A DNA stretch of 64,000 nt. Origin: Nitrospira sp. Its GTDB lineage: Bacteria > Nitrospirota > Nitrospiria > Nitrospirales > Nitrospiraceae. Below the pieces are notes generated by a model. It was not told where the DNA came from, searched no databases, and saw only the letters and a list, made by a program, of their open reading frames with translations. The stretch spans positions 372,001 to 436,000 of the forward strand of contig CP126122.1 of assembly GCA_030123565.1 (NCBI GenBank). Reading direction: 5' to 3'. Position numbers and translations under genes: made by a program. The number at the start of each line of letters is the position of its first letter. Position 1 is the stretch's first letter. Below, piece after piece: positions 41,150-52,656 of the stretch.

Positions 41150-43414
41150 ATGTACGAAGGCACCGAGCAAGACCTGCTTCGCCTCCTCGCCTCGCGGGCT
41201 GGAATTTCTCCTGAGTACCACGACATCGCGGGTACCCTTCACGTCACCAGCGACGAGACCAGGAGGTCCATCCTCTCCGCGATGGGGTTTCAGGTGGAAT
41301 CGCGCGAGACTCTTACCCAAGAATTGACCGCCTGGGACGAGGCGCCTTGGCAACAACCCTGTGATCCGATTCTCATCCTCCAGCAGGGGCATGAAAGCGC
41401 GCGGTGGTCGCTGCGACTGCCGCTGGACGAGGGAGAAGAACAACACCTGGTGGTGGCCTGGAAAGTGATCGATGAGCAGGGGACGGTCGTACATCGCGAG
41501 GAAGCGGGTCCGCACCTGGTCCCGCAAGAGGTACGGTATCCGGCGGGACGCCGCACGGTGCGTTTGGAACTGCCTCTGATTCCCGACCTGGCGCTCGGCT
41601 ACTATGATGTGTCGGTCATGACCAAGGGAAGCAAGGTCGAGACGAAGGGCTCGCTCCGTCTCGTCGTCGCCCCTCCGCATTGTTATGTTCCCGAAGGCCT
41701 GGCGCAGGGCGAGCGGGTCTGGGGGGTGGCGGTGCAGCTGTATGCGCTGCGCTCCGGCACGAATTGGGGTGTCGGCGACTTTTCCGATTTGTCCCGCTTG
41801 GTCGAATGGGCCGGCAAGGAGTTGGGGGCCGGGATCATCGGCCTGAATCCGCTACATGCCCTTAAAAACTCTCGTCCTCATCACCTCAGTCCCTATTCGC
41901 CGACCAGCCGGCTGTTTTTGAATGATCTCTACATCGATCTCGATCGATTGCCTGAGTATCGCATCTCGCCGGATGCTCAGCGGCTGCGGAACAGTCCTGA
42001 GTTTCAGAAGGAATTGGAGAAGGTCCGCCTGGCCGACCGTGTGGATTCCGAGTCCGTGGTGAAGGCGAAGCGGACGATGCTGGACTTGGCCTACCGGCAG
42101 TTCTTGAAAGACAACTATACGGGAACGGAACCCTCGCTTCAGCCGACCAGCGCGCGCGGCTGGCTGTTGGAGCGGTTTATCCGCGACGAGGGAGAATCGC
42201 TGGAGCGGTTCGCCCTGTTTCAAGTCCTGGAAGAGGAGCGACGTTTGGTCGAGCAGCCTCCCACGCTCTGGCCTGAGTGGCCAGCCCAGTATCGGACTCC
42301 GGGCTCGCCCGCTCTGCGGGAATTCGCCAAACGACATCGCAAGCGGGTCCGGTTCTTTCAGTATCTGCAGTGGGTGGCGGCGGATCAGTTGAAGGAGGCC
42401 AAGACCCGTGCGGCTCAGGTGCGGATGGCGGTCGGATTGTATCCGGACTTGGCCTTGGGCAGCGATCGCAACGGCGCCGAGGCCTGGATGCTGCAGGATG
42501 TGTTGGCGTTGAACGCCGACTGCGGTGCCCCGCCGGACGCATTTGCTCCGCAGGGCCAGAACTGGGGATTCGCTCCATTCCATCCGCTTCGCCTCAAGGC
42601 GACGGGCTATCGTTCCTATATCGAACTGCTGCGAAAGACGCTTCGTCAGGGCGGCGCGATTCGCATCGACCATGTCATGATGTTGTTCCGGTTGTTTTGG
42701 GTGCCGCGCGGCTCGACCGCTGCGGCGGGAGCCTACGTGCACTATCCCGCGGAGGACTTGCTGCGCATTCTGGCCTTGGAAAGTACCCGCGCCAGGACGC
42801 TGGTGATCGGAGAGGATTTGGGCACGGTGCCGGATTACGTGCGGGAGCAACTGGCGCGCTATCGGATACTGTCCTATCGCGTGTTCTACTTCGAGCGGAA
42901 TTGGAATGACGGGTCGTTCCAGCCGCCGCCGGCCTATCCGGACCAATCGCTGGCGGTCGTGACCACCCATGATCTTCCGACCCTCTCCGGCTACTGGACG
43001 GGTGAAGATATCCGGTTACGGGCGGGGCTCGGCATGTATGCGAGCGAACAGGCCGTGCAACAGGCGTTGGAGGAGCGGTTGCGGGATAAGGGCCATATGC
43101 TTGCCGCCCTGAAGCAGATGGATCTCTTGCCCCCGGGCCTGAGCGACCAGCCGGAGCAGGTTGCGGTGATGACGCCGGAACTGTGCCGAGCGATCCATGT
43201 GTACCTTGCCGCCTCGCGGGCCTGGATCGTGATGGCCAACCTTGACGACGTGATCGGTGAAGTGACACAAATGAACCTGCCCGGTACCGTGGATGCCTAT
43301 CCGAATTGGTCTCGGAAGCTGTCGCTGTCGCTGGAGGAGCTTCAAGGGGATGAACGTGTGCAATCGCTCGCCGCGGCCCTACGCACCCTCCGTCCCCCTG
43401 CCGCAACCTCCTAG
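41150..43414 (+). CDS. malQ: 4-alpha-glucanotransferase (amylomaltase)
   Basis: A 754-residue protein of family GH77 with an extra N-terminal beta domain (about 1-180). The catalytic nucleophile is the Asp in GGAIRIDHVMMLFRLFW, the acid/base Glu is in VIGEDLGTVPDYV and the stabilising Asp in VTTHDLPTLSGYW. Substrate loops LSPYSPTSRLFLNDLYID and the PPDAFAPQGQNWGFAPFHP segment are conserved. The enzyme rearranges maltodextrins and acts in glycogen or maltose turnover in the cytoplasm. It stands alone in this direction, 31 bases before a kinase gene. Confidence 0.96.
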   Translation: MYEGTEQDLLRLLASRAGISPEYHDIAGTLHVTSDETRRSILSAMGFQVESRETLTQELTAWDEAPWQQPCDPILILQQGHESARWSLRLPLDEGEEQHLVVAWKVIDEQGTVVHREEAGPHLVPQEVRYPAGRRTVRLELPLIPDLALGYYDVSVMTKGSKVETKGSLRLVVAPPHCYVPEGLAQGERVWGVAVQLYALRSGTNWGVGDFSDLSRLVEWAGKELGAGIIGLNPLHALKNSRPHHLSPYSPTSRLFLNDLYIDLDRLPEYRISPDAQRLRNSPEFQKELEKVRLADRVDSESVVKAKRTMLDLAYRQFLKDNYTGTEPSLQPTSARGWLLERFIRDEGESLERFALFQVLEEERRLVEQPPTLWPEWPAQYRTPGSPALREFAKRHRKRVRFFQYLQWVAADQLKEAKTRAAQVRMAVGLYPDLALGSDRNGAEAWMLQDVLALNADCGAPPDAFAPQGQNWGFAPFHPLRLKATGYRSYIELLRKTLRQGGAIRIDHVMMLFRLFWVPRGSTAAAGAYVHYPAEDLLRILALESTRARTLVIGEDLGTVPDYVREQLARYRILSYRVFYFERNWNDGSFQPPPAYPDQSLAVVTTHDLPTLSGYWTGEDIRLRAGLGMYASEQAVQQALEERLRDKGHMLAALKQMDLLPPGLSDQPEQVAVMTPELCRAIHVYLAASRAWIVMANLDDVIGEVTQMNLPGTVDAYPNWSRKLSLSLEELQGDERVQSLAAALRTLRPPAATS

Positions 43415-43444
43415 GCGGTGGCCGCCGCGCGGCGTGGGATCGCG

Positions 43445-44599
43445 ATGAAGAGCCGAAATCAGGTCGTTCTCGCCATTGCCGCCTGTCTGTTTCTCATCGT
43501 CATGGTCATGGAGTGGATGTTCCCGCTCAATGTCGTGGGGGCATTCGGCTTCGTGTTGCCCATTCTGCTGGTGGCGACCGTTCGCGATCGGCGACTCATG
43601 TTCTTCACCCTGGCGCTTTGTATCGTGGTGACTTTCATCGGCCTCTTCCAACCGGGGCGGAAGAAGGAACGATTCACCACGGTTGTGTTCAACCGCACGA
43701 TGGTGGTCTGTGTCTTGGCGGGAGTGGCCTATATCGGTGTCACGTGGGAAGAGAGGAAAGCCCGCGAAGAAGCCGCCAGAGCCGCCCTGGCGGCGCAAAC
43801 CGAACATCTCCTACGGGCCAATACGCAACTCGTGGAGATGAAGGACAGGCTGGCGAGATCCGAACGGCTGGCGGCGGTGGGGCAGTTGGTGGCGTCCGTG
43901 GCGCATGAAGTCGGAACCCCCTTGCATTCGATCGCCTGGCACGTGGAAGCGCTGGCGGAAGAGCCCAGCATCACAGCCGAGATGAAAAAACGAATCGGTA
44001 TCATCGATGAACAGTTGAATCGGGTGGTGCGCATCATTCAAGATCTCTTGTCCTCGACCAGACAACGGAAGCCGGAACCCACGTGGTATCCTGCGGAGCG
44101 GTTGATCGAGCCGGTCGTGGCCTTGATGGAAGCGGCCTACCATGCCAAGGGTGTCACGCTCCACACAGACGTGGCGCATCCTGTGCCGCTCGCCTGGGCG
44201 GATGCCGAGAAAATCCATCAAGTGCTGGTCAACCTCCTGACCAATGCGCTGGCCGCAACGGGAGCGGGAGGACAGGTGAAGGTCGTCCTGGCGACGCGCC
44301 CGGCGTCGGCCGACGAGAGAGACAACGCCGCCTGCACGGGCCGTTCCGATCTCGACACCATGGTCACGCTCGCGGTGAGCGATACGGGCTGCGGGATGCC
44401 GCAGGAAGATTTGGAGCGGGCAGTCCAGCCGTTTTTTACGACCAAGGCCGTCGGCAAGGGAACGGGCTTGGGTCTGTTTCTAAGCCGCGAGGTGGTGGTG
44501 GCCCACGGCGGTCGTTTGACGCTGGAGAGCGAAGTGGGAAAGGGCACGACCGTCACCGTGGCCCTTCCCGGTTTGCAACCGGATTCAGTCGCCAGTTAG
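43445..44599 (+). CDS. Membrane-bound two-component sensor kinase
   Basis: ATG 43445 (MKSRNQVVLAIAAC) is preferred over GTG 43418, since it begins directly before a helix. The 384-residue protein has three to four N-terminal membrane helices (to about residue 100), a coiled coil, HisKA with the His in SVAHEVGTPLHSIAW, and HATPase with NLLTNALAA, SDTGCGMPQ and GTGLGLFLSREVV. There is no large periplasmic sensor, so it may sense a membrane condition. It is 11 bases upstream of an NtrC-type regulator, its evident partner. Confidence 0.92.
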   Translation: MKSRNQVVLAIAACLFLIVMVMEWMFPLNVVGAFGFVLPILLVATVRDRRLMFFTLALCIVVTFIGLFQPGRKKERFTTVVFNRTMVVCVLAGVAYIGVTWEERKAREEAARAALAAQTEHLLRANTQLVEMKDRLARSERLAAVGQLVASVAHEVGTPLHSIAWHVEALAEEPSITAEMKKRIGIIDEQLNRVVRIIQDLLSSTRQRKPEPTWYPAERLIEPVVALMEAAYHAKGVTLHTDVAHPVPLAWADAEKIHQVLVNLLTNALAATGAGGQVKVVLATRPASADERDNAACTGRSDLDTMVTLAVSDTGCGMPQEDLERAVQPFFTTKAVGKGTGLGLFLSREVVVAHGGRLTLESEVGKGTTVTVALPGLQPDSVAS

Positions 44600-44610
44600 G
44601 AGAACCCCCG

Positions 44611-46005
44611 ATGAGTCAGGCGAAATTATTCGTAGTCGATGACGACGAGGTCGCGCGCACGCTTCTGGCGGAGGCGCTGGTGAAGGAGGGGTACGATGTC
44701 GAGGTGTTTTCCAACGGTCAGGCTGCCGTTGAACGGGGCAAACAAACCCCCGCCGACGTGGTCTTGACCGACATCCGCATGGAACAGGGCGACGGGTTCA
44801 TGTTGCTGAAGGAGTTCAAGCGGTTCAGCCCGGAGACGTCGATCGTGTTGCTGACGGCATTCGGCTCGTTGGAGGGCGCGATCGAGGCGATCAAGCTGGG
44901 GGCCTATGACTATCTTGCTAAGCCGTTCAAGAAGGAAGAAATCCGCCTCGTGGTGCAACGCAGCTTGGAACATTGTCGGCTGGTCCGGGAGAATGCCCGG
45001 TTCCGTGATGATGCGCGCTCGCGCGAGCCCTGGTCTCAACTGGTCGGCAGCAGCCCGGCGATGTTGGAGGTCTATAAGCTGGTGGCTCGGGTCTCCGAAG
45101 GGCGGAGCACGGTGCTGATCGAAGGCGAGAGCGGAACCGGGAAAGAGTTGATTGCGCGGGCCGTGCATTCGAACAGTCCTCGAAGGGAGAAACCCTTCAT
45201 TCCAGTCAACTGCGGTGCCTTGCCCCATCACCTGCTCGAATCGGAAATGTTCGGGTATGACAAGGGCGCCTTTACGGGAGCCGTGGGGGCAAAGGCGGGG
45301 CTGTTTGAAGCGGCCCATGGCGGGACCCTGTTCCTGGATGAGATCGGTGATCTCGGGCCGGCACTCCAGGTCAAATTGCTGCGGGTGATGCAGGAACAGG
45401 AGGTGCGCCGTGTCGGCAGCACCTCGTCGGTGAAGGTCGATGTCCGTATCATTGCCGCGACGAATCGTGACCTGGCCACCCTCGTGAAGGAGGGAAAGTT
45501 TCGCGACGACCTGTACTACCGCCTCAATGTGGTGCGTATCGCCTTGCCCTCGCTGGCCGAGCGGCGGGAAGACATTCCGATGTTGGCGCAGCATTTCTTG
45601 CAGAAATACGCCAAACAGTCGTTGCACGTGAAGGGGTTTCACTCGGATACGATGGCGGTGCTCAAACGGTACCACTGGCCGGGGAACGTGCGCGAGTTGG
45701 AAAATGCCGTGGAACGGGCTGTGTCTCTCAGCCATGGCCCGCTGCTGCTGCCGGAGGATCTTCCTGAGACCATCCGAGCCGAACCGCAGCCGGCTGAAGC
45801 GCCGAAGGGGGATCACGCCGAGGCGGGGCAGGAGGCGCTCCTGACCCTGGATGAGGTCGAGAAACGGCATCTCACGCTGGTGCTCAAGGAAATGCGGGGC
45901 AACAAGGTCAAGGCCGCGAAGATTCTCGGGATCGATCGGCGCACGCTCTATCGCATGGCGGAGCGGTTCGGACTGAACCTTGGCGATGAAACGGAAGAAA
46001 AATAG
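44611..46005 (+). CDS. NtrC-family sigma-54-dependent response regulator
   Basis: ATG 44611 follows GGAGAACC. The 464-residue protein has a receiver domain (FVVDDDE, Asp in VVLTDIRMEQGDG, Lys in LAKPFKK) and an AAA+ domain with Walker A GESGTGKE, the sigma-54 contact loop KGAFTGA, Walker B GTLFLDEIGD and the R-finger region. The C-terminal Fis-type helix-turn-helix is NKVKAAKILGIDRRTLYRM. It activates sigma-54 promoters after phosphorylation by the upstream kinase. It converges with a small lipoprotein gene nine bases away. Confidence 0.95.
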   Translation: MSQAKLFVVDDDEVARTLLAEALVKEGYDVEVFSNGQAAVERGKQTPADVVLTDIRMEQGDGFMLLKEFKRFSPETSIVLLTAFGSLEGAIEAIKLGAYDYLAKPFKKEEIRLVVQRSLEHCRLVRENARFRDDARSREPWSQLVGSSPAMLEVYKLVARVSEGRSTVLIEGESGTGKELIARAVHSNSPRREKPFIPVNCGALPHHLLESEMFGYDKGAFTGAVGAKAGLFEAAHGGTLFLDEIGDLGPALQVKLLRVMQEQEVRRVGSTSSVKVDVRIIAATNRDLATLVKEGKFRDDLYYRLNVVRIALPSLAERREDIPMLAQHFLQKYAKQSLHVKGFHSDTMAVLKRYHWPGNVRELENAVERAVSLSHGPLLLPEDLPETIRAEPQPAEAPKGDHAEAGQEALLTLDEVEKRHLTLVLKEMRGNKVKAAKILGIDRRTLYRMAERFGLNLGDETEEK

Positions 46006-46013
46006 CAGGCGGA

Positions 46014-46460
46014 TTACAACAGTCGCAGCGCGTTCTTGATCAGGCGAATCTCGTTCGCGGCACTCTGCGGCAAGGGCGTTTCTGCCTCTTCCCACCAGTC
46101 GAAGAGTCCATCCTTCCCGCGATGAAAGACCTGGAGCCTCAACCTGGTGGTGCGGTCGTCTTGCGGGACCATCCGAGCTTCCACCCGGCTCTTCCCCACG
46201 CCGAACCGCCAATGCAGGAGGCTGTTCCAAGGGCTTCTGATTTCCTGCCTCATGCCGGTCGTCAGGTTGCCGGCCTCGTCTTGATCGACCCTGTAGCCCC
46301 CCTCCGTCAAGACATCCGTCACGGCCTTGCCGACCAGGTCGGCTGAGGCGGGGAGTGTCACCTCGACCACATCCGGTTCAAGGGAGGGAGGGGTTCCCGC
46401 GCAGCCGAAGACTGTTGCGATCAATGCCAGGGCGACGATGCTCGCTGCTGCGGATCTCAC
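46014..46460 (-). CDS. Lipoprotein of unknown function
   Basis: A 148-residue protein with lipobox TVFGC (Cys about 20). The mature part has a repeated strand-helix layout (LVGKAVTDVLTEGGYRVDQD, SRVEARMVPQDDRTTRLRLQ) that resembles small BamC-like or DUF799-like periplasmic folds, but the family is not certain. Its start overlaps the stop of the Lrp-ligand-domain gene by ATGA, so they are co-translated. Confidence 0.65.
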   Translation of the reverse strand: MRSAAASIVALALIATVFGCAGTPPSLEPDVVEVTLPASADLVGKAVTDVLTEGGYRVDQDEAGNLTTGMRQEIRSPWNSLLHWRFGVGKSRVEARMVPQDDRTTRLRLQVFHRGKDGLFDWWEEAETPLPQSAANEIRLIKNALRLL

Positions 46461-46711
46461 TTAGGCTTCCCTTCCTGAAGGCGGTAGACCATGTGGGTGT
46501 CCGTCTGGTCGACGCCTGGGATGGCATGAATCTTTGCGAGCACCAGCTGGGTCAATGCGTCCTGGTGGGGGATTTCGACGATGGTGAAGATATCCGGCTT
46601 GCCCCAGCAAGGGTCGATTTGTTTGATCTCCTTGATGTTTGCCAAGGCTTTCACCACATCGGCGGTCTGGCCGGGATGGACATTGATCAGCACATAGGCT
46701 CGGTCCGGCAT
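46457..46711 (-). CDS. Stand-alone Lrp/AsnC ligand-binding domain (RAM) protein
   Basis: An 84-residue protein consisting only of the ligand-binding fold of Lrp/AsnC regulators: AYVLINVHPGQTADVVKALA, VDQTDTHMVYRL and a conserved Gly-rich turn. There is no helix-turn-helix. Such domains form ring-like oligomers and bind amino acids or act as regulatory partners. The connection with the lipoprotein downstream by a four-base overlap is odd, as one is cytoplasmic and the other exported. Confidence 0.85.
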   Translation of the reverse strand: MPDRAYVLINVHPGQTADVVKALANIKEIKQIDPCWGKPDIFTIVEIPHQDALTQLVLAKIHAIPGVDQTDTHMVYRLQEGKPK

Positions 46712-46844
46712 GCAGGGGATCTCCCATGTTGTGGGGTGCGGGATAACGGCACGTCTGTCCGCCTTTCGAAACCTAGCGGATTGATCCGGATGAAGTCAAC
46801 AGAACGGACGGTACTCCGTGCGCGGCAGGGCCTGTCTCGTCCCG

Positions 46845-48317
46845 TCATTTTGGTGCGACGATGACTTCCACCGCATAGGTGTCGCCGACTGTCGTGAGGT
46901 CGGCCTCCAACCCGCGAGGATTTCCGATTCGTCCGTCCGGATCGTAGATGAAGCACAACAGAGTTTTTCCGTTCGGACGCGCGGAGTAATGGACCGCGTC
47001 CAACTTCACCTGCTCGGCGAGGTCTTTCGTGGTCAATCCCGGGCGGGTCTGTTTGACGACAACGGCCGTTCTGTCCCAATCGAGGAGGTAGGTGGTCCGT
47101 CGAGCGCCGTCGGCATAGTCCGGGCTCCATTCCTCTGTTCCGACTTCGTCGAATTGCAGGCGGAGGAGCGCATAGAACAGGTCCTGTAGGTCATACTCGT
47201 CGTTGATCTCCAACGTCGGACGGTATTCTTTCCGCAAGCGGAGTTGCCGGGCTACCAAATGGAATCGTGTACAGATTTTTCTGAGGAGGTCGCGCGTTGC
47301 ATCCTCCGTTCCGGCCGGAGGCTGAGTAACTGACGCAACAGGCGGTTCGATCCTCGAAGGTGGACGGTCACACTCTTTGGTCGCCATAGGAGAAATCTCC
47401 GGTGCGGGAAGGGTGGTGGATGGTTCCGCGGCTAGAGCAGGTCGTTCCTGCGCAAGGTCGGGGACCAGCGGCAGCGGTCGAAGGGGCAAGGGTGCGGGTG
47501 GAACGAACCCAGCGGCCTCCCCGTCGCTCGGCTGGTTCTCCTTCGGCGGGGCGGCTGCCGGGTCTGATGGGGCAGGCTGTTTCACTGCTTGCAGGATGGG
47601 TAGGATGGTCTCTTGCGGAATGACTGTTCGAAGCGACGGGGTTTCAGCAAGCGGGGCCGTGGCGGAGGCTGCTTCGGTCTGCCTGTTGTCAGGTCCCGGC
47701 GATGACGGTGGATCCGGTCGGCGAGGCATCGACGTGTCGCGAATCGGTTGTGGTGGAGGGGCGACGGTGGCCTGCGTGGGAGGCAGAGCGACCGGTACCG
47801 GCGTGGCTGGCGGAGGGACCGGTGGAATTGGCTGGTTGAGGGGGGGCGTCGTGGTTGGGACCGTGGGGGGAGTTTCCCGAACGGTCTCTACAGGAGCCGA
47901 ATCTGAAGCAGGTTGTGGGGGCACTGTTGTCGAAGGGGGCCCTATGTTCAACGGTTTAGGCGTTCCAGGTGAGGCGGGTTTGAGGCCTAAGAGGTCGGCC
48001 TTCTGGTGCTCCAGTGCGGCGATCAGTTCTTTCAAGAGCGCGGTGCTCTGTGCGGACTCCGTACGGGTGCCGATACGCAACTTGTGGTTCTTGTGGGTTT
48101 GGTATTCCGGCGACTTTTCGCCGAAGAGCCGTCGAATGGTCTCGCGCAAAGACAGTTCGGTTCTGGCGCGGACCGCCTCACCGTAGGGAAATCCATCACG
48201 GCTCAGGTCGTCGATGTGGGTGCTCAGTTCACGCAGCTTCGCGATGCCGCGCGTGAGTTCTTCTAGGGCATTCGGTTTTGCGCGATTGCGTGGTTCGCTG
48301 GTTTTGATTTTTGCCAT
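46845..48317 (-). CDS. Proline-rich protein with degenerate DpnII/MboI-like nuclease domain
   Basis: A 490-residue protein in three parts. Residues 1-100 are helical (ALEELTRGIAKLRELSTH, TELSLRETIRRLFGEKSPEY). Residues 110-335 form a Pro/Ala/Thr-rich linker. The C-terminal part from about 346 (TRFHLVARQLRLRKEYRPT, DEYDLQDLFYALLRLQFD, FIYDPDGRIGNPRGLEADL) matches my recollection of the PD-(D/E)XK fold of the DpnII/MboI type. In active relatives DFLL and (I/V)EVK carry the catalytic Asp and Glu. Here the positions are Thr409 (TYLLDWD) and Val420 (VVVK422), so the site looks dead. It may have kept only DNA binding. The long linker is unusual and the role is unknown. Confidence 0.6.
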   Translation of the reverse strand: MAKIKTSEPRNRAKPNALEELTRGIAKLRELSTHIDDLSRDGFPYGEAVRARTELSLRETIRRLFGEKSPEYQTHKNHKLRIGTRTESAQSTALLKELIAALEHQKADLLGLKPASPGTPKPLNIGPPSTTVPPQPASDSAPVETVRETPPTVPTTTPPLNQPIPPVPPPATPVPVALPPTQATVAPPPQPIRDTSMPRRPDPPSSPGPDNRQTEAASATAPLAETPSLRTVIPQETILPILQAVKQPAPSDPAAAPPKENQPSDGEAAGFVPPAPLPLRPLPLVPDLAQERPALAAEPSTTLPAPEISPMATKECDRPPSRIEPPVASVTQPPAGTEDATRDLLRKICTRFHLVARQLRLRKEYRPTLEINDEYDLQDLFYALLRLQFDEVGTEEWSPDYADGARRTTYLLDWDRTAVVVKQTRPGLTTKDLAEQVKLDAVHYSARPNGKTLLCFIYDPDGRIGNPRGLEADLTTVGDTYAVEVIVAPK

Positions 48318-48351
48318 CGGTGCCGTGCCTTTGCAGAAACAGGTCTATTCG

Positions 48352-48846
48352 TCAGTCGACCCACTCGACCTCCGTCTTGCCGGACGAAGTCGTTTTCTTC
48401 GTATCTGCCGCGGCGGGTGGGCCTGCCAGGACTTGCCGCACGAGGGTCAGGAGGGCCTCGCTGGTAAAGGGCTTTTGCAAAAACGGGAGCCCGCCCCGTG
48501 CGAGGCCGCGACTGTGTAATTCAGGACCGGGACTGCCGGACATGAGAATGATCCGGATCTCCCGCTTTTTCTCCAACAGTCGCTCGACCATATCGAGGCC
48601 GTTCACCCGAGGATAGGGATTTTTCTCGACGGAGAGTTGAAAGCCGGGCGGAGGGAGGAAGATATCGGTCAGGATGAGATGTACGGGGTCGGGATGTTCC
48701 TCATAGAGCTTGAGGGCTTCGGAACTTCCCGGCGCTTGGAGGACCGTATAGCCGGCCTCCCGCAACGGTTTCGTACAGAGGAGAAGGGTGGTGGGATCGT
48801 CGTCGACGATCAAAATGGTCGCGGCCTGTCGTGAACTGCTGGTCAT
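48352..48846 (-). CDS. Stand-alone response regulator receiver protein
   Basis: ATG 48846 follows GGAGGAG. The 164-residue protein is one receiver domain: TILIVDDDPTT with the acidic pair, phosphoacceptor Asp in HLILTDIFLPPPGF, and conserved Lys in PFLQKPFTSEAL. An insertion of about ten residues after the Asp (FQLSVEKNPYPRVNG) is not usual for receivers. A charged Thr/Ser/Lys tail closes it. No output domain is present, so it works through protein contacts or as phosphate sink. It is 34 bases upstream of the Pro-rich nuclease-fold gene and could be co-transcribed with it. Confidence 0.88.
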   Translation of the reverse strand: MTSSSRQAATILIVDDDPTTLLLCTKPLREAGYTVLQAPGSSEALKLYEEHPDPVHLILTDIFLPPPGFQLSVEKNPYPRVNGLDMVERLLEKKREIRIILMSGSPGPELHSRGLARGGLPFLQKPFTSEALLTLVRQVLAGPPAAADTKKTTSSGKTEVEWVD

Positions 48847-48912
48847 GGGGGGGCTCCTCCGTGCCGGCTGCTGCGGCACGTATGATGATGGTGACCTGTG
48901 AGGTACGCGCAT

Positions 48913-49761
48913 TTAGAACGGATGAGGGCGTTCCTTGAGGCGCTCATACTCACGTTGCTCACAGCTGCCTTGTTTGGGCCTGACTTGTTCCGGCACATCC
49001 GCGAAACGCAGCGCGCAATAACGCTGAGCCTGTCGATGTCGATCGAGGTCTTGCTGTTCCTCCAACTGTTGAAGACGGGCCGTGAGGTCGATGGCCGGAA
49101 GGTCCTTCTCCGACGGTTTGTCCGGTTGTGGGACATTCGATGTGTCTTCGCTGGATCGTGGATGCGGGCCGTTCAATCGCCAACGTGTGAGGACATCGTC
49201 TTGATTGAACACGATGGTCAATCCGAATTGGGAGTAGTCCCAGACCAGTTCACCCCTGTCCGGATGCGCCAGGATGGAACGGGGAAGCCCGTACCGATTC
49301 CACACTTCATCGCGCAACATTCCCACTCGCGGCGTCAGATTTCGGATCGCATGGATTTGCGCGAGAATCGGAGACATGTCCGTTTGTCTCCCGGGGCCTG
49401 CCCGTTTCGTGAGTGTTTCCAGCGCTGTTCGAGGGGCGCGCAACAGTCGCCATACCGTGACGAGTCCTGTCGGGCAGTCGGGAGGATGGGGATCTTCGAA
49501 AACCATTTGTGTGTCCAGCGGGAATCCGGCGATTTCCTGGGCTCGCGTGAAATTTTTGACTTCCTGGACGGCGGCCACGTAGGCACGTTGCCGTCCGTCT
49601 TCCATGGTGGGAGCGCAGGAAGCTCGCCCGGTGAAGAAGATATCGTCGCCGAAGTGAAACGAGGCTTGTTCCGTCCAGAATGGGCGATTCTCAGCGGCTG
49701 TAGCCGTCGAAGCGACGAGAAGGATCACGGTGAGAAGCGCAATCATGATGGGCTGGACCAT
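48913..49761 (-). CDS. Exported protein with BamE/SmpA-like segment
   Basis: I start at ATG 49761 (MVQPIMIALLTVILLVAST), where a signal peptide begins; the longer frame upstream is Pro/Ser-rich without signal. The 282-residue product has a first domain with RQRAYVAAVQEVKNFTRAQ, then GMLRDEVWNRYGLPRSILAH and RGELVWDYSQFGLTIVF, which look like the GxxxxxVxxxxGxP and WxY wording of BamE/SmpA-type domains. A Gln/Arg-rich tail with two Cys closes it. The function may be in the outer-membrane or periplasmic space; it is not established. Confidence 0.6.
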   Translation of the reverse strand: MVQPIMIALLTVILLVASTATAAENRPFWTEQASFHFGDDIFFTGRASCAPTMEDGRQRAYVAAVQEVKNFTRAQEIAGFPLDTQMVFEDPHPPDCPTGLVTVWRLLRAPRTALETLTKRAGPGRQTDMSPILAQIHAIRNLTPRVGMLRDEVWNRYGLPRSILAHPDRGELVWDYSQFGLTIVFNQDDVLTRWRLNGPHPRSSEDTSNVPQPDKPSEKDLPAIDLTARLQQLEEQQDLDRHRQAQRYCALRFADVPEQVRPKQGSCEQREYERLKERPHPF

Positions 49762-49933
49762 AGGGGTGCCTGAGGAACGGTGTGGTCTGTGGGCACTCTT
49801 CGCAGTATAACGCGCAGCCGGATAAAATCGACAAAAGAGCGATTTTGCGCTCAAGGACGATGAGGTCGAGAACGTGGTCGCCGGAGGGAAAACGTCGGCT
49901 CGTGGGTCGTCGGACAGGCGAAATGGAGACGAG

Positions 49934-50623
49934 TCAGTAATTTGTGGAGGTGGTTGAACTCTGGCTGCCGGACGCAGGGGGGTGGGCCTGGGTTTTGGGA
50001 GAACCCACTTCACTCGTCATGAGGCCGGACCCCGGAGGACAGACGTTTTCCGGGGCAACGGCGCCCGGGTTGCGCATGCCCCAGGCTGTGGCGAGGGCGT
50101 GACAAGTGAGGAGGCTGATGCCTTCTTCGATATTCCCGAAGCGTTCGGTGGACTGGGCCTTGCCGCTCCATTCGATTTCACCGGTATTAACGTCGACGGC
50201 GCGGAGCGCGATCGTGGCCGAATAGACTTTCTGGCTTTGCGGAAAACCTGTGCTCCAATTCAAGGCTTCCCACGATCCCACTTCGGCATTGGTAAAGACG
50301 ACCAACCGCGCCCCCACCAGTTTGGCCATCCGCAGCACGTCCGTTTCAATATATTGATAGCCTGTAAGGCTCACCTTTTGGTCGGCCGCGGCCTGCAGCA
50401 CCTTGGTTTGGTCTACGACGAGAATCCCCTTCTTGAGCAGCCAGGTGCTGGCGCTCTGGATTGTATCGGGGCGTCCGCCCCAGACGACCGCCCTGGTGTA
50501 GGGCGACGGCAGTTTGGCATGGAAACCGTCCGTAATCGGAGTTTCCACGAACGCGTAGCCTCGACAGCCGCTCGTCGCCAGCAGGAGGGTGCACAGAACT
50601 ATGACAGGATTCACCGATTTCAT
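49934..50623 (-). CDS. Lipoprotein, possible curli CsgG-like fold
   Basis: A 229-residue protein with lipobox LLATSGC (Cys 20). The mature part contains STWLLKKGILVVDQTKVLQA, an alpha/beta segment KLVGARLVVFTNAEV and ATIALRAVDVNTGEIEWSG. These phrases (a helix with a GADxVVxG-like strand, then RxVDVxTGEI) are typical of CsgG/DUF799-like lipoproteins that bind nucleotide-like folds at the outer membrane. The C-terminus is Ser/Thr/Pro-rich. It is not a full CsgG and has no curli genes nearby. Confidence 0.6.
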   Translation of the reverse strand: MKSVNPVIVLCTLLLATSGCRGYAFVETPITDGFHAKLPSPYTRAVVWGGRPDTIQSASTWLLKKGILVVDQTKVLQAAADQKVSLTGYQYIETDVLRMAKLVGARLVVFTNAEVGSWEALNWSTGFPQSQKVYSATIALRAVDVNTGEIEWSGKAQSTERFGNIEEGISLLTCHALATAWGMRNPGAVAPENVCPPGSGLMTSEVGSPKTQAHPPASGSQSSTTSTNY

Positions 50624-51066
50624 CAGTCTCTTAGCTATAGAATTTTCCTGGAACCGTCAACGTGAAACTTTCTTTCATCAACAACGGCAGGTGGTCTTAC
50701 GCGTGGAATGATGCCTGTATCGACGGTCGGCATTATACATGAACGGCTCACCATGGTGCGGACGAAGTTGTCGGCAGCGTCGGGGGCGTCTGACGCTTGT
50801 CTCTGCGTTCGTGCGCCCTCCATCCATCGGTAACAGAGCCGCCGGAGACTCACAAGATCTCGATGTTGAGTGACAATGGGGTAACGTCTTGATTCTCATG
50901 GACGAGGTTGGCGGAGCGAGGTCAATCCCCCCGCTTCGCGCCAAGCAGCGATGGAAAGAACTGTGCAATCAGAACATTTTGCGCTGAGCCGGAAGACCTA
51001 AGGGTGGTCGTGCAGAAGGACGAAGTGCCCGTAAGATCGGGGCGGAACCCAGGTTGCGGGCGAGGG
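50624..51066. other. Intergenic stretch, nothing recognised
   Basis: About 440 bases between the end of the RND operon and the start of a lipoprotein gene, all on the minus strand. The composition is mixed and there is no open frame with a ribosome site and protein-like pattern. The promoter of the lipoprotein gene should be near 50630-50700. No hairpin with a T-run was seen after the outer-membrane gene. Confidence 0.5.
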
Positions 51067-52656
51067 TCAACGAACGGCGGGCTTGGTCAGATCATTATTC
51101 ACCCAGTTATTCGGTGCATTGACATCGATACCGCCTGCCGCCGGCGGCTTATCGAGATTCGTATATTGAAACGTTCCGAACGGTTGGATCTGCTCGTCCG
51201 TCGGCAATTGATTGCGGTTCCAGCCCCCGCCGAGGGCCCGGATGAGTGCCACCGAGGATCTCAGCAGTTCGGCCTTGATCTGCACGGAATCGATGCGCGC
51301 GATGAGCGTGGCGACCTGCGCGTAGATGAGTTCAAGGCTGGAAGCCAAGCCACCCTGATATAGTTCCATGGTGAGATCTTGTGTTTTCTGTGTCGCTCCG
51401 ACGGCCGCGTCTTGCCGGTTGGCCGCGACGGTCAATCGGTTGGTCAGGCTCAAATTGTTCTCGACTTCGCGAAAAGCATTCAACACCGCCGAACGGTAGC
51501 GGTCTTCCGTCTCGCGATAGGCCGACCAGGACTGCTGCAATTGGGCGCGGCGATAGCCGGCCTGGAAGAGCGGCAGCGACACCGCGGAGCCATAGGACCA
51601 GAAACTGTTCGCGAGCTTGATGAGATTGAAGCCGTTATCTTCGAACCCGCCTCCGAGGTTGAACGACACATTGGGGAAAAAGGCGGCGCGGGCGATGCCG
51701 ATCGCGCGGTTGGCCTGCGCCATTCGGCGCTCCATCCCCGCGATGTCGGGCCGACGCTCCAGCAAGGTGGACGGGATGGTCTGTGGAATCGTGAAATTCT
51801 CCACCCGCAGGACATCGACCGGGTCGATCTTGAAACTGGCCGGCGCCATGTTGAGCAGGATGGCGATCGCTTGTTCCGTCACTTGGCGCTGTCCTTGAAT
51901 CTGAGCGTACTTGGTCTCGGTGCTGAACAGCAGCGATTCGACCCGCGCGACGTCCAGGGCCGATGCGATCGCGCCGGCGAACTGCGCGTTCACGAGTTTC
52001 AACGAATTTCTGTAGAGGTCGATCGATTGGGCGTAGATCGCGCTTTGGGCGTCGTATCCGCGCAGTGTGAAATAATTCGCCGCGACTTCCGCCTGCAGGC
52101 TGAGGCGGGCGAGGCCCCAGTCGGCGGCGCGTTCTTCGGCGCGATAGAGTTCCACGCGCGTGGTATTGCGAAGCTGCGACCAGAAATCAGGCTCCCAGGA
52201 CGCGAGCCCCCCGCCGTACACGGTCGTCCCGAACTCCGAAATATTGGGGGGACGAAAGAGTTTATCGACGGATTGCTTGTTGTCCGAAGCGCCGATCTCC
52301 AGGCCGATCCGAGGAAGGTACTGCGAGCGGGCCCTCATCATCACATCGCGGGCCTGGACGAACCGTTCGGCGGCGGCCTGCAAATCCGGATTGGCCGCCA
52401 TGGCTTGCTCCTCAAGCCTGTTCAGGACCGGATCGTTAAATTCTTTCCACCAGTCCAGGCGCAATTCACCGTCCGACGGCTTCGCCTCGACGAAAGGGCT
52501 CGATCCATGCCATGAGACGGGGACGACGTATTGCGGCGGATCATACGTCGGCGCCAGATCGGCGGCAGGAAACGTGTTGCAAGCTGACAAGCTGAGCGCC
52601 AGCAAGAGCATGCCGCTGCTCCGCGCGCAAGCCGGAAGGATGCAGGCCATGGTCAC
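51067..52656 (-). CDS. RND efflux outer-membrane lipoprotein (TolC/NodT-like)
   Basis: GTG 52656 overlaps the adaptor stop by one base; ATG 52650 is also possible. Lipobox LALSLSAC precedes the mature protein. The 529 residues contain two repeats of the OEP fold (NPDLQAAAERFVQARDVMMR, ATLIARIDSVQIKAELLRS) and the NodT-like wording ERRPDIAGMERRMAQANRAIG and FWSYGSAVSLPLFQAG. It forms the exit duct of a tripartite pump with the adaptor and permease genes upstream. A C-terminal 50-residue tail is polar and Asn/Pro-rich. Confidence 0.93.
   Translation of the reverse strand: MTMACILPACARSSGMLLLALSLSACNTFPAADLAPTYDPPQYVVPVSWHGSSPFVEAKPSDGELRLDWWKEFNDPVLNRLEEQAMAANPDLQAAAERFVQARDVMMRARSQYLPRIGLEIGASDNKQSVDKLFRPPNISEFGTTVYGGGLASWEPDFWSQLRNTTRVELYRAEERAADWGLARLSLQAEVAANYFTLRGYDAQSAIYAQSIDLYRNSLKLVNAQFAGAIASALDVARVESLLFSTETKYAQIQGQRQVTEQAIAILLNMAPASFKIDPVDVLRVENFTIPQTIPSTLLERRPDIAGMERRMAQANRAIGIARAAFFPNVSFNLGGGFEDNGFNLIKLANSFWSYGSAVSLPLFQAGYRRAQLQQSWSAYRETEDRYRSAVLNAFREVENNLSLTNRLTVAANRQDAAVGATQKTQDLTMELYQGGLASSLELIYAQVATLIARIDSVQIKAELLRSSVALIRALGGGWNRNQLPTDEQIQPFGTFQYTNLDKPPAAGGIDVNAPNNWVNNDLTKPAVR

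Follow-up and report, generated by a model that had tools for sequence, protein, structure and literature searches.

The 490-residue protein encoded on the minus strand at 46845..48317 of the window (the whole 64,000-nucleotide stretch of Nitrospira sp. contig CP126122.1 which was analyzed) ends in a DpnII-MboI-type PD-(D/E)XK nuclease domain in which both catalytic acidic residues are replaced. Since the cutting residues were lost while most of the remaining fold is under strong selection, the protein probably has a new, non-cutting job, and we regard it as highly probable that the gene is a dead and domesticated nuclease gene. No publication on this gene was found in the literature searched. 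Open reading frame analysis placed the gene on the minus strand, the plus-strand frame being interrupted by stops, with the following features:

46845..48317, minus strand: whole gene, 490 aa, with helical domain, Pro-rich linker and catalytically degenerate DpnII-MboI-type PD-(D/E)XK domain
47964..48317, minus strand: N-terminal helical domain, residues 1-118 (AlphaFold2 helices within 17-109), with a disordered Lys/Arg-containing tail at 1-16
47289..47963, minus strand: Pro/Ala/Thr-rich linker, residues 119-343, predicted disordered from composition and low pLDDT
46848..47288, minus strand: PF18742 DpnII-MboI domain, residues 344-490, from the Pfam match and AlphaFold2 topology H-H-E-E-E-H-E-H-E
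47091..47093, minus strand: codon 409, Thr at the catalytic Asp position, by comparison with active relatives and 125 family copies
47058..47060, minus strand: codon 420, Val at the catalytic Glu position of E-X-K, by the same comparison
47052..47054, minus strand: codon 422, catalytic-position Lys, kept (Lys in 117 of 125 copies)

The initial annotation had proposed a DpnII/MboI-like fold, and this identification was confirmed. Residues 344-490 matched the Pfam family PF18742 (DpnII-MboI) from end to end (model positions 2-150 of 150; E = 3.2e-50; 170 bits, the cut-off being 27). An AlphaFold2 model built with 41 sequences contained two confident parts, a four-helix N-terminal domain (residues 17-109) and an alpha/beta C-terminal domain (336-490), with a disordered stretch between them. 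The predicted elements of the C-terminal domain (helix 374-388, strands 393-397, 407-412 and 417-423, helix 430-445, strand 452-458) follow the order of the PD-(D/E)XK core, and most blocks have pLDDT above 90. VIA-align matched this domain to the CdiA-CT nuclease toxin (Z 8.4), BstYI (8.2), BamHI (7.7) and BglII (7.4); scores of 7.4-8.4 for a predicted model are only moderate, yet they come from the expected fold. When the C-domain profile was searched against the PDB a single chain was returned at E ≤ 0.001, EcbAgaN (PDB 23wq, E = 5e-5). Foldseek searches with both domain models, covering the families listed there, found no PDB entry at E ≤ 0.001, a single-sequence PDB search gave one chance-level match (E = 1.5), and no NCBIfam match was obtained for the window protein.

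The triad of an active DpnII-MboI-type nuclease, Asp plus Glu-X-Lys, is present in the active relatives as R-x-D-F-L-L...E-x-K. The window protein reads RTTYLL...AVVVKQTR, with T409 and V420 at the acidic positions and K422 retained. We counted 125 family-type domains collected from family searches, leaving out the active-type copies L002 and L003, the more distant PF18742 proteins L106, L107 and L136, and fragments in G224, G183, G347 and G314. None of these 125 orthologous or paralogous copies had an intact triad: ten kept the Asp only, two the Glu only and 113 neither, so the earlier suggestion of a catalytically dead restriction fold with replaced Asp and Glu is supported beyond the window. 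At position 409 the Asp was substituted by T, S, A, M, G, R, V or Y. Other residues were retained in nearly all copies (K422 in 117, Q436 in 121, D440 in 124, and H353, D373 and D376 in all 125), and the reading frame was open in all 125 full-length domain copies. Near-invariant positions were defined on 13 active relatives (62 positions, being 64 printed minus two gap columns); 37 of these were kept at 80% or more in the family and four, R393, D409, E420 and G434, fell below 20%. As these four include both catalytic acids, the loss is concentrated on the metal-binding acids and is not spread evenly over the domain. With both acids gone, the window protein probably does not cleave.

The possibility that these homologues never had the acidic residues could be excluded, since close relatives carry D-E-K intact and early-branching family members keep one acid. 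A 97-row tree (quick method, root not inferred) separated 14 intact proteins, 13 identified by pattern and L226 by eye from its intact triad, from all family-type rows by a branch with SH-aLRT 98, and the rows keeping one acid sit near this branch. In the same tree the nearest named relatives assign the genome of the window to Nitrospira. Because intact forms are spread over Pseudomonadota, Bacteroidota and others, and because half-kept triads occur, activity was probably the ancestral state.

The domain is widespread in the genus and the family. It was found in 28 of 29 genus genomes, one of which (G024) holds an active-type copy only, and the N-domain of the dead gene was found in 27 of 29. 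Among family genomes 127 of 147 carry the domain, or 98 of 109 good genomes when G183, which holds a remnant only, is included in the 98; in a phylum sample the figure was 78 of 295 genomes, nearly all from Nitrospiraceae. The 11 good genomes without the domain have a median size of 2.3 Mb against 3.9 Mb for the 98 with it (Mann-Whitney p = 2e-6, kinship uncorrected), and in the 1.7 Mb genome G183 a decaying copy was observed, a gene remnant with an internal stop beside the lipoprotein gene (L273, 2647-2868). The gene is thus dispensable, as judged from the smaller size of genomes without it and from the remnant in G183.

Where the gene is present its folded parts are conserved. Against seven genus orthologues dN/dS was 0.051-0.100 for the C-domain, which indicates that the dead domain is maintained, and 0.043-0.175 for the N-domain; the linker gave 0.41-0.98 on an unsure alignment. 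With eight more distant orthologues dS of the C-domain was saturated in five, and the other three gave dN/dS of 0.136-0.205.

A disordered linker of 225 residues had been described from the sequence, and both its composition (61 P, 28 A and 24 T) and its low confidence in the AlphaFold2 model agree with this. The linker is poorly conserved (15-34% identity). A conserved short linker motif suspected by reading is not claimed, the pattern being found in 16 of 65 linkers and absent from the window protein.

The N-terminal domain had been described as helical and as resembling DpnII-associated helices. The first part stands in the AlphaFold2 model (helices 17-40, 46-65, 70-74 and 85-109) and the second is supported indirectly. 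Its profile matched the N-domains of active relatives weakly in hhalign (probability 41, E = 3e-4), and a G086 protein of the PF09509/TIGR02391 (Ymh) type has an N-domain 32% identical to that of the window protein (E = 9e-13). In that protein (L143, 1077-1901) the same N-domain is fused to the Ymh domain, so the helical domain is common to different effector domains. The PADLOC model PDC-S35 was matched by the G086 protein and by two of four scanned active REases (L219, L223), and seven of 23 family N-domains matched it weakly (E ≤ 0.1); when the N-domain profile was searched against the PDB, the best match (E = 0.1) was not significant. According to Anantharaman et al. 2013 (PMC3710099), the DpnII/MboI-NTD is a helical domain of about 100 aa homologous to the N-termini of DpnII and MboI and found in fusions. 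Our N-domain data appear to agree with that description when compared through the active REase and Ymh-type N-domains. The basic N-terminal tail was rejected as evidence, since a median of 5 K/R in 17 residues (63 core rows) is not clearly unlike some active relatives.

The gene lies in a conserved neighbourhood, with the following genes in the window:

41150..43414, plus strand: 4-alpha-glucanotransferase MalQ, conserved neighbour (18 of 18 neighbourhoods)
43418..44599, plus strand: histidine kinase, convergent conserved neighbour (17 of 18)
44083..46005, plus strand: NtrC-type sigma-54 response regulator, convergent conserved neighbour (17 of 18); coordinates are those of the longest ORF and the true start is probably further in
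46014..46460, minus strand: predicted lipoprotein with lipobox-like VFGC, third gene of the row (16 of 18)
46457..46711, minus strand: stand-alone Lrp/AsnC ligand-binding (RAM) domain protein, 84 aa (PF01037, E = 2.5e-11), conserved downstream partner
48352..48912, minus strand: lone receiver-domain protein (PF00072), upstream, not a conserved neighbour

In 18 chosen family neighbourhoods the gene order was malQ, histidine kinase, NtrC regulator, then the convergent lipoprotein, RAM-domain and dead-nuclease genes, matched in 18, 17, 17, 16, 17 and 18 cases, respectively. The lipoprotein gene product had no Pfam match. In 119 of 125 copies the next gene downstream, on the same strand and 20-178 nt from the domain end, is the RAM-domain gene; the six exceptions were in G252, G308, G310 and G320 and the second copies of G317 and G322. 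These second copies (L238, L242) keep D409, have lost E420 and have no RAM-domain gene. The RAM-domain and lipoprotein genes persist at five loci lacking the dead-nuclease gene (L274-L278, in G103, G086, G315, G305 and G179), and the partnership is therefore at most one-way. The lone receiver protein noted upstream in the initial annotation is real, but as a conserved partner it was rejected, since a receiver was found in only 5 of 18 neighbourhoods (of seven matching ORFs, two are the NtrC-type regulator next door). It is the Lrp/AsnC-domain gene that is conserved as a partner.

Solo helical-REase PF18742 proteins (for example in E. coli IncX4 NZ_CP119125.1, and L219 and L223) are among the closest known counterparts of the window protein, having the same domain end to end, a helical N-domain likewise placed ahead of the REase fold, and 51-52% identity over the domain to genus copies. 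They differ in that D-E-K is intact and the proteins are about 250-290 aa without a long linker, whereas the window protein has lost the acids and carries the linker. Those examined are carried by plasmids, sit in ICE-like stretches or adjoin an integrase, while the window gene is at a fixed chromosomal locus. The window C-domain also matched PADLOC Aga_Helical-REase, a short-Argonaute partner (E = 1.2e-18). EcbAgaN keeps its catalytic residues (RIDLYL...IIEVK), unlike the window protein, and among the neighbours scanned none had an Argonaute-type domain. The DpnII/MboI type II restriction-modification system is different again: a PF04556 enzyme was not found in the window's own genome, and no methyltransferase was seen among the neighbouring proteins scanned (41153-52656, main ORFs only). 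With the DpnII/MboI-NTD fusions described in PMC3710099 and with PADLOC PDC-S35 the apparent likeness is in the N-domain; here the partner is a dead REase over a long linker.

We give about even chances to a history in which domestication of a defence-type nuclease, early in the family, produced a protein that no longer cuts and that probably binds nucleic acid in a regulatory or scaffold role. The location of the active relatives supports this history: all those examined were on plasmids, within an ICE-like stretch (Klebsiella record), or beside an integrase or tyrosine recombinase. In Candidatus Nitrospira defluvii (FP929003.1) the dead gene and an active-type copy occur together, the active-type copy near a tyrosine recombinase recognised by eye. 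A solo two-domain nuclease, with a helical N-domain and a DpnII-MboI PD-(D/E)XK domain, would have entered Nitrospiraceae early, become fixed beside the malQ/two-component locus and acquired a long disordered linker between its two domains. Metal-dependent cleavage would then have been lost, with the fold, the Lys/Gln/Asp pocket residues and the conserved surface motifs kept. The REase-fold domain would bind nucleic acid or a partner but not cut, the basic helical domain would serve oligomerisation or contact with a second partner, and the linker would let both domains reach apart. The protein would thus be regulatory or architectural and would probably work with the RAM-domain protein encoded downstream. 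A binding role of the REase-fold domain is plausible at somewhat less than even chances, and the overall acidity of the C-domain (pI 5.7, like the active relatives) was counted against it. Of the individual roles, DNA binding or an architectural function ranks as most likely, followed by a protein scaffold. The protein may be a DNA-binding sensor, as the initial annotation suggested.

As a scaffold, the pseudo-nuclease domain would bind no nucleic acid, its partners being proteins alone, such as the RAM-domain protein or the lipoprotein. The long linker, the conserved three-gene row and the acidic C-domain all fit such a role, while the conservation of the former nuclease pocket residues K422 and Q436, though possibly structural, speaks against it; we consider pure protein binding unlikely.

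The initial annotation had also suggested an inhibitor of related nucleases, that is, a dominant-negative or immunity factor pairing with active relatives brought in by plasmids or phages. The domain is about 51% identical to an active genus copy over its whole length, and active-type copies are in circulation on plasmids (a match was present in 207 plasmid records, a few of which were read for intact residues). Against this, the window's own genome contained no second PF18742 domain, and an active-type copy was found in only 2 of 29 genus genomes (G001, G024), compared with 27 of 29 for the dead N-domain. This rarity of active copies disfavours a general inhibitor role, and a fixed single-locus gene under strong purifying selection does not appear to follow the pattern of arms-race immunity. 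We therefore think inhibition improbable.

It is equally doubtful that the protein is still an enzyme in which E374, D376, D379 or D440 took over metal binding. Restriction enzymes exist whose Glu migrated to a neighbouring helix, D373, D376, D379 and D440 are almost invariant, and the ten copies with D409 lack E420. However, the same acids are invariant in the active relatives and so are not a new acquisition, and D409 is replaced in 115 of 125 copies. We give a similarly low rating to a split ligand-responsive DNA-binding regulator, in which the dead restriction fold would act with the separately encoded RAM-domain protein in an Lrp-like manner, the domesticated nuclease replacing the helix-turn-helix and the linker leading to an oligomerising helical domain. 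A slowly dying gene without function, to which the losses in small genomes and the G183 remnant might point, is very improbable and already contradicted by dN/dS of 0.05-0.10 and by the open frames of all 125 full-length domain copies.

Returning to the domesticated, non-cutting protein, it offers a clear example of how a mobile defence nuclease became resident in the chromosome of Nitrospira-type bacteria. To our knowledge few restriction-type pseudo-enzymes have been documented that are inherited vertically throughout a bacterial family. The graded steps are visible, with one catalytic acid in early branches, neither in the main branch and most else held by selection, and the use of a dead restriction fold becomes a directly testable question.

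Some further observations were made on the PF18742 records. In G001 (L144, 5771-6598 and 8948-10117) an intact D-E-K copy and a tyrosine-recombinase-like gene are separated by about 2.3 kb, and a nucleotide-sensor-like gene lies between them; the recombinase-like and sensor-like genes were recognised by eye, and the region is probably a defence island. A plasmid PF18742 protein (L147, 5644-6441) carries the annotation 'malate dehydrogenase' in several plasmid records from E. coli, Klebsiella and Pantoea, apparently a naming error that has been propagated. The contigs of L181, L187 and L223 are labelled Phycisphaerales or Nitrosospira and are probably mislabelled or misbinned; L181 and L187 group with Nitrospira.
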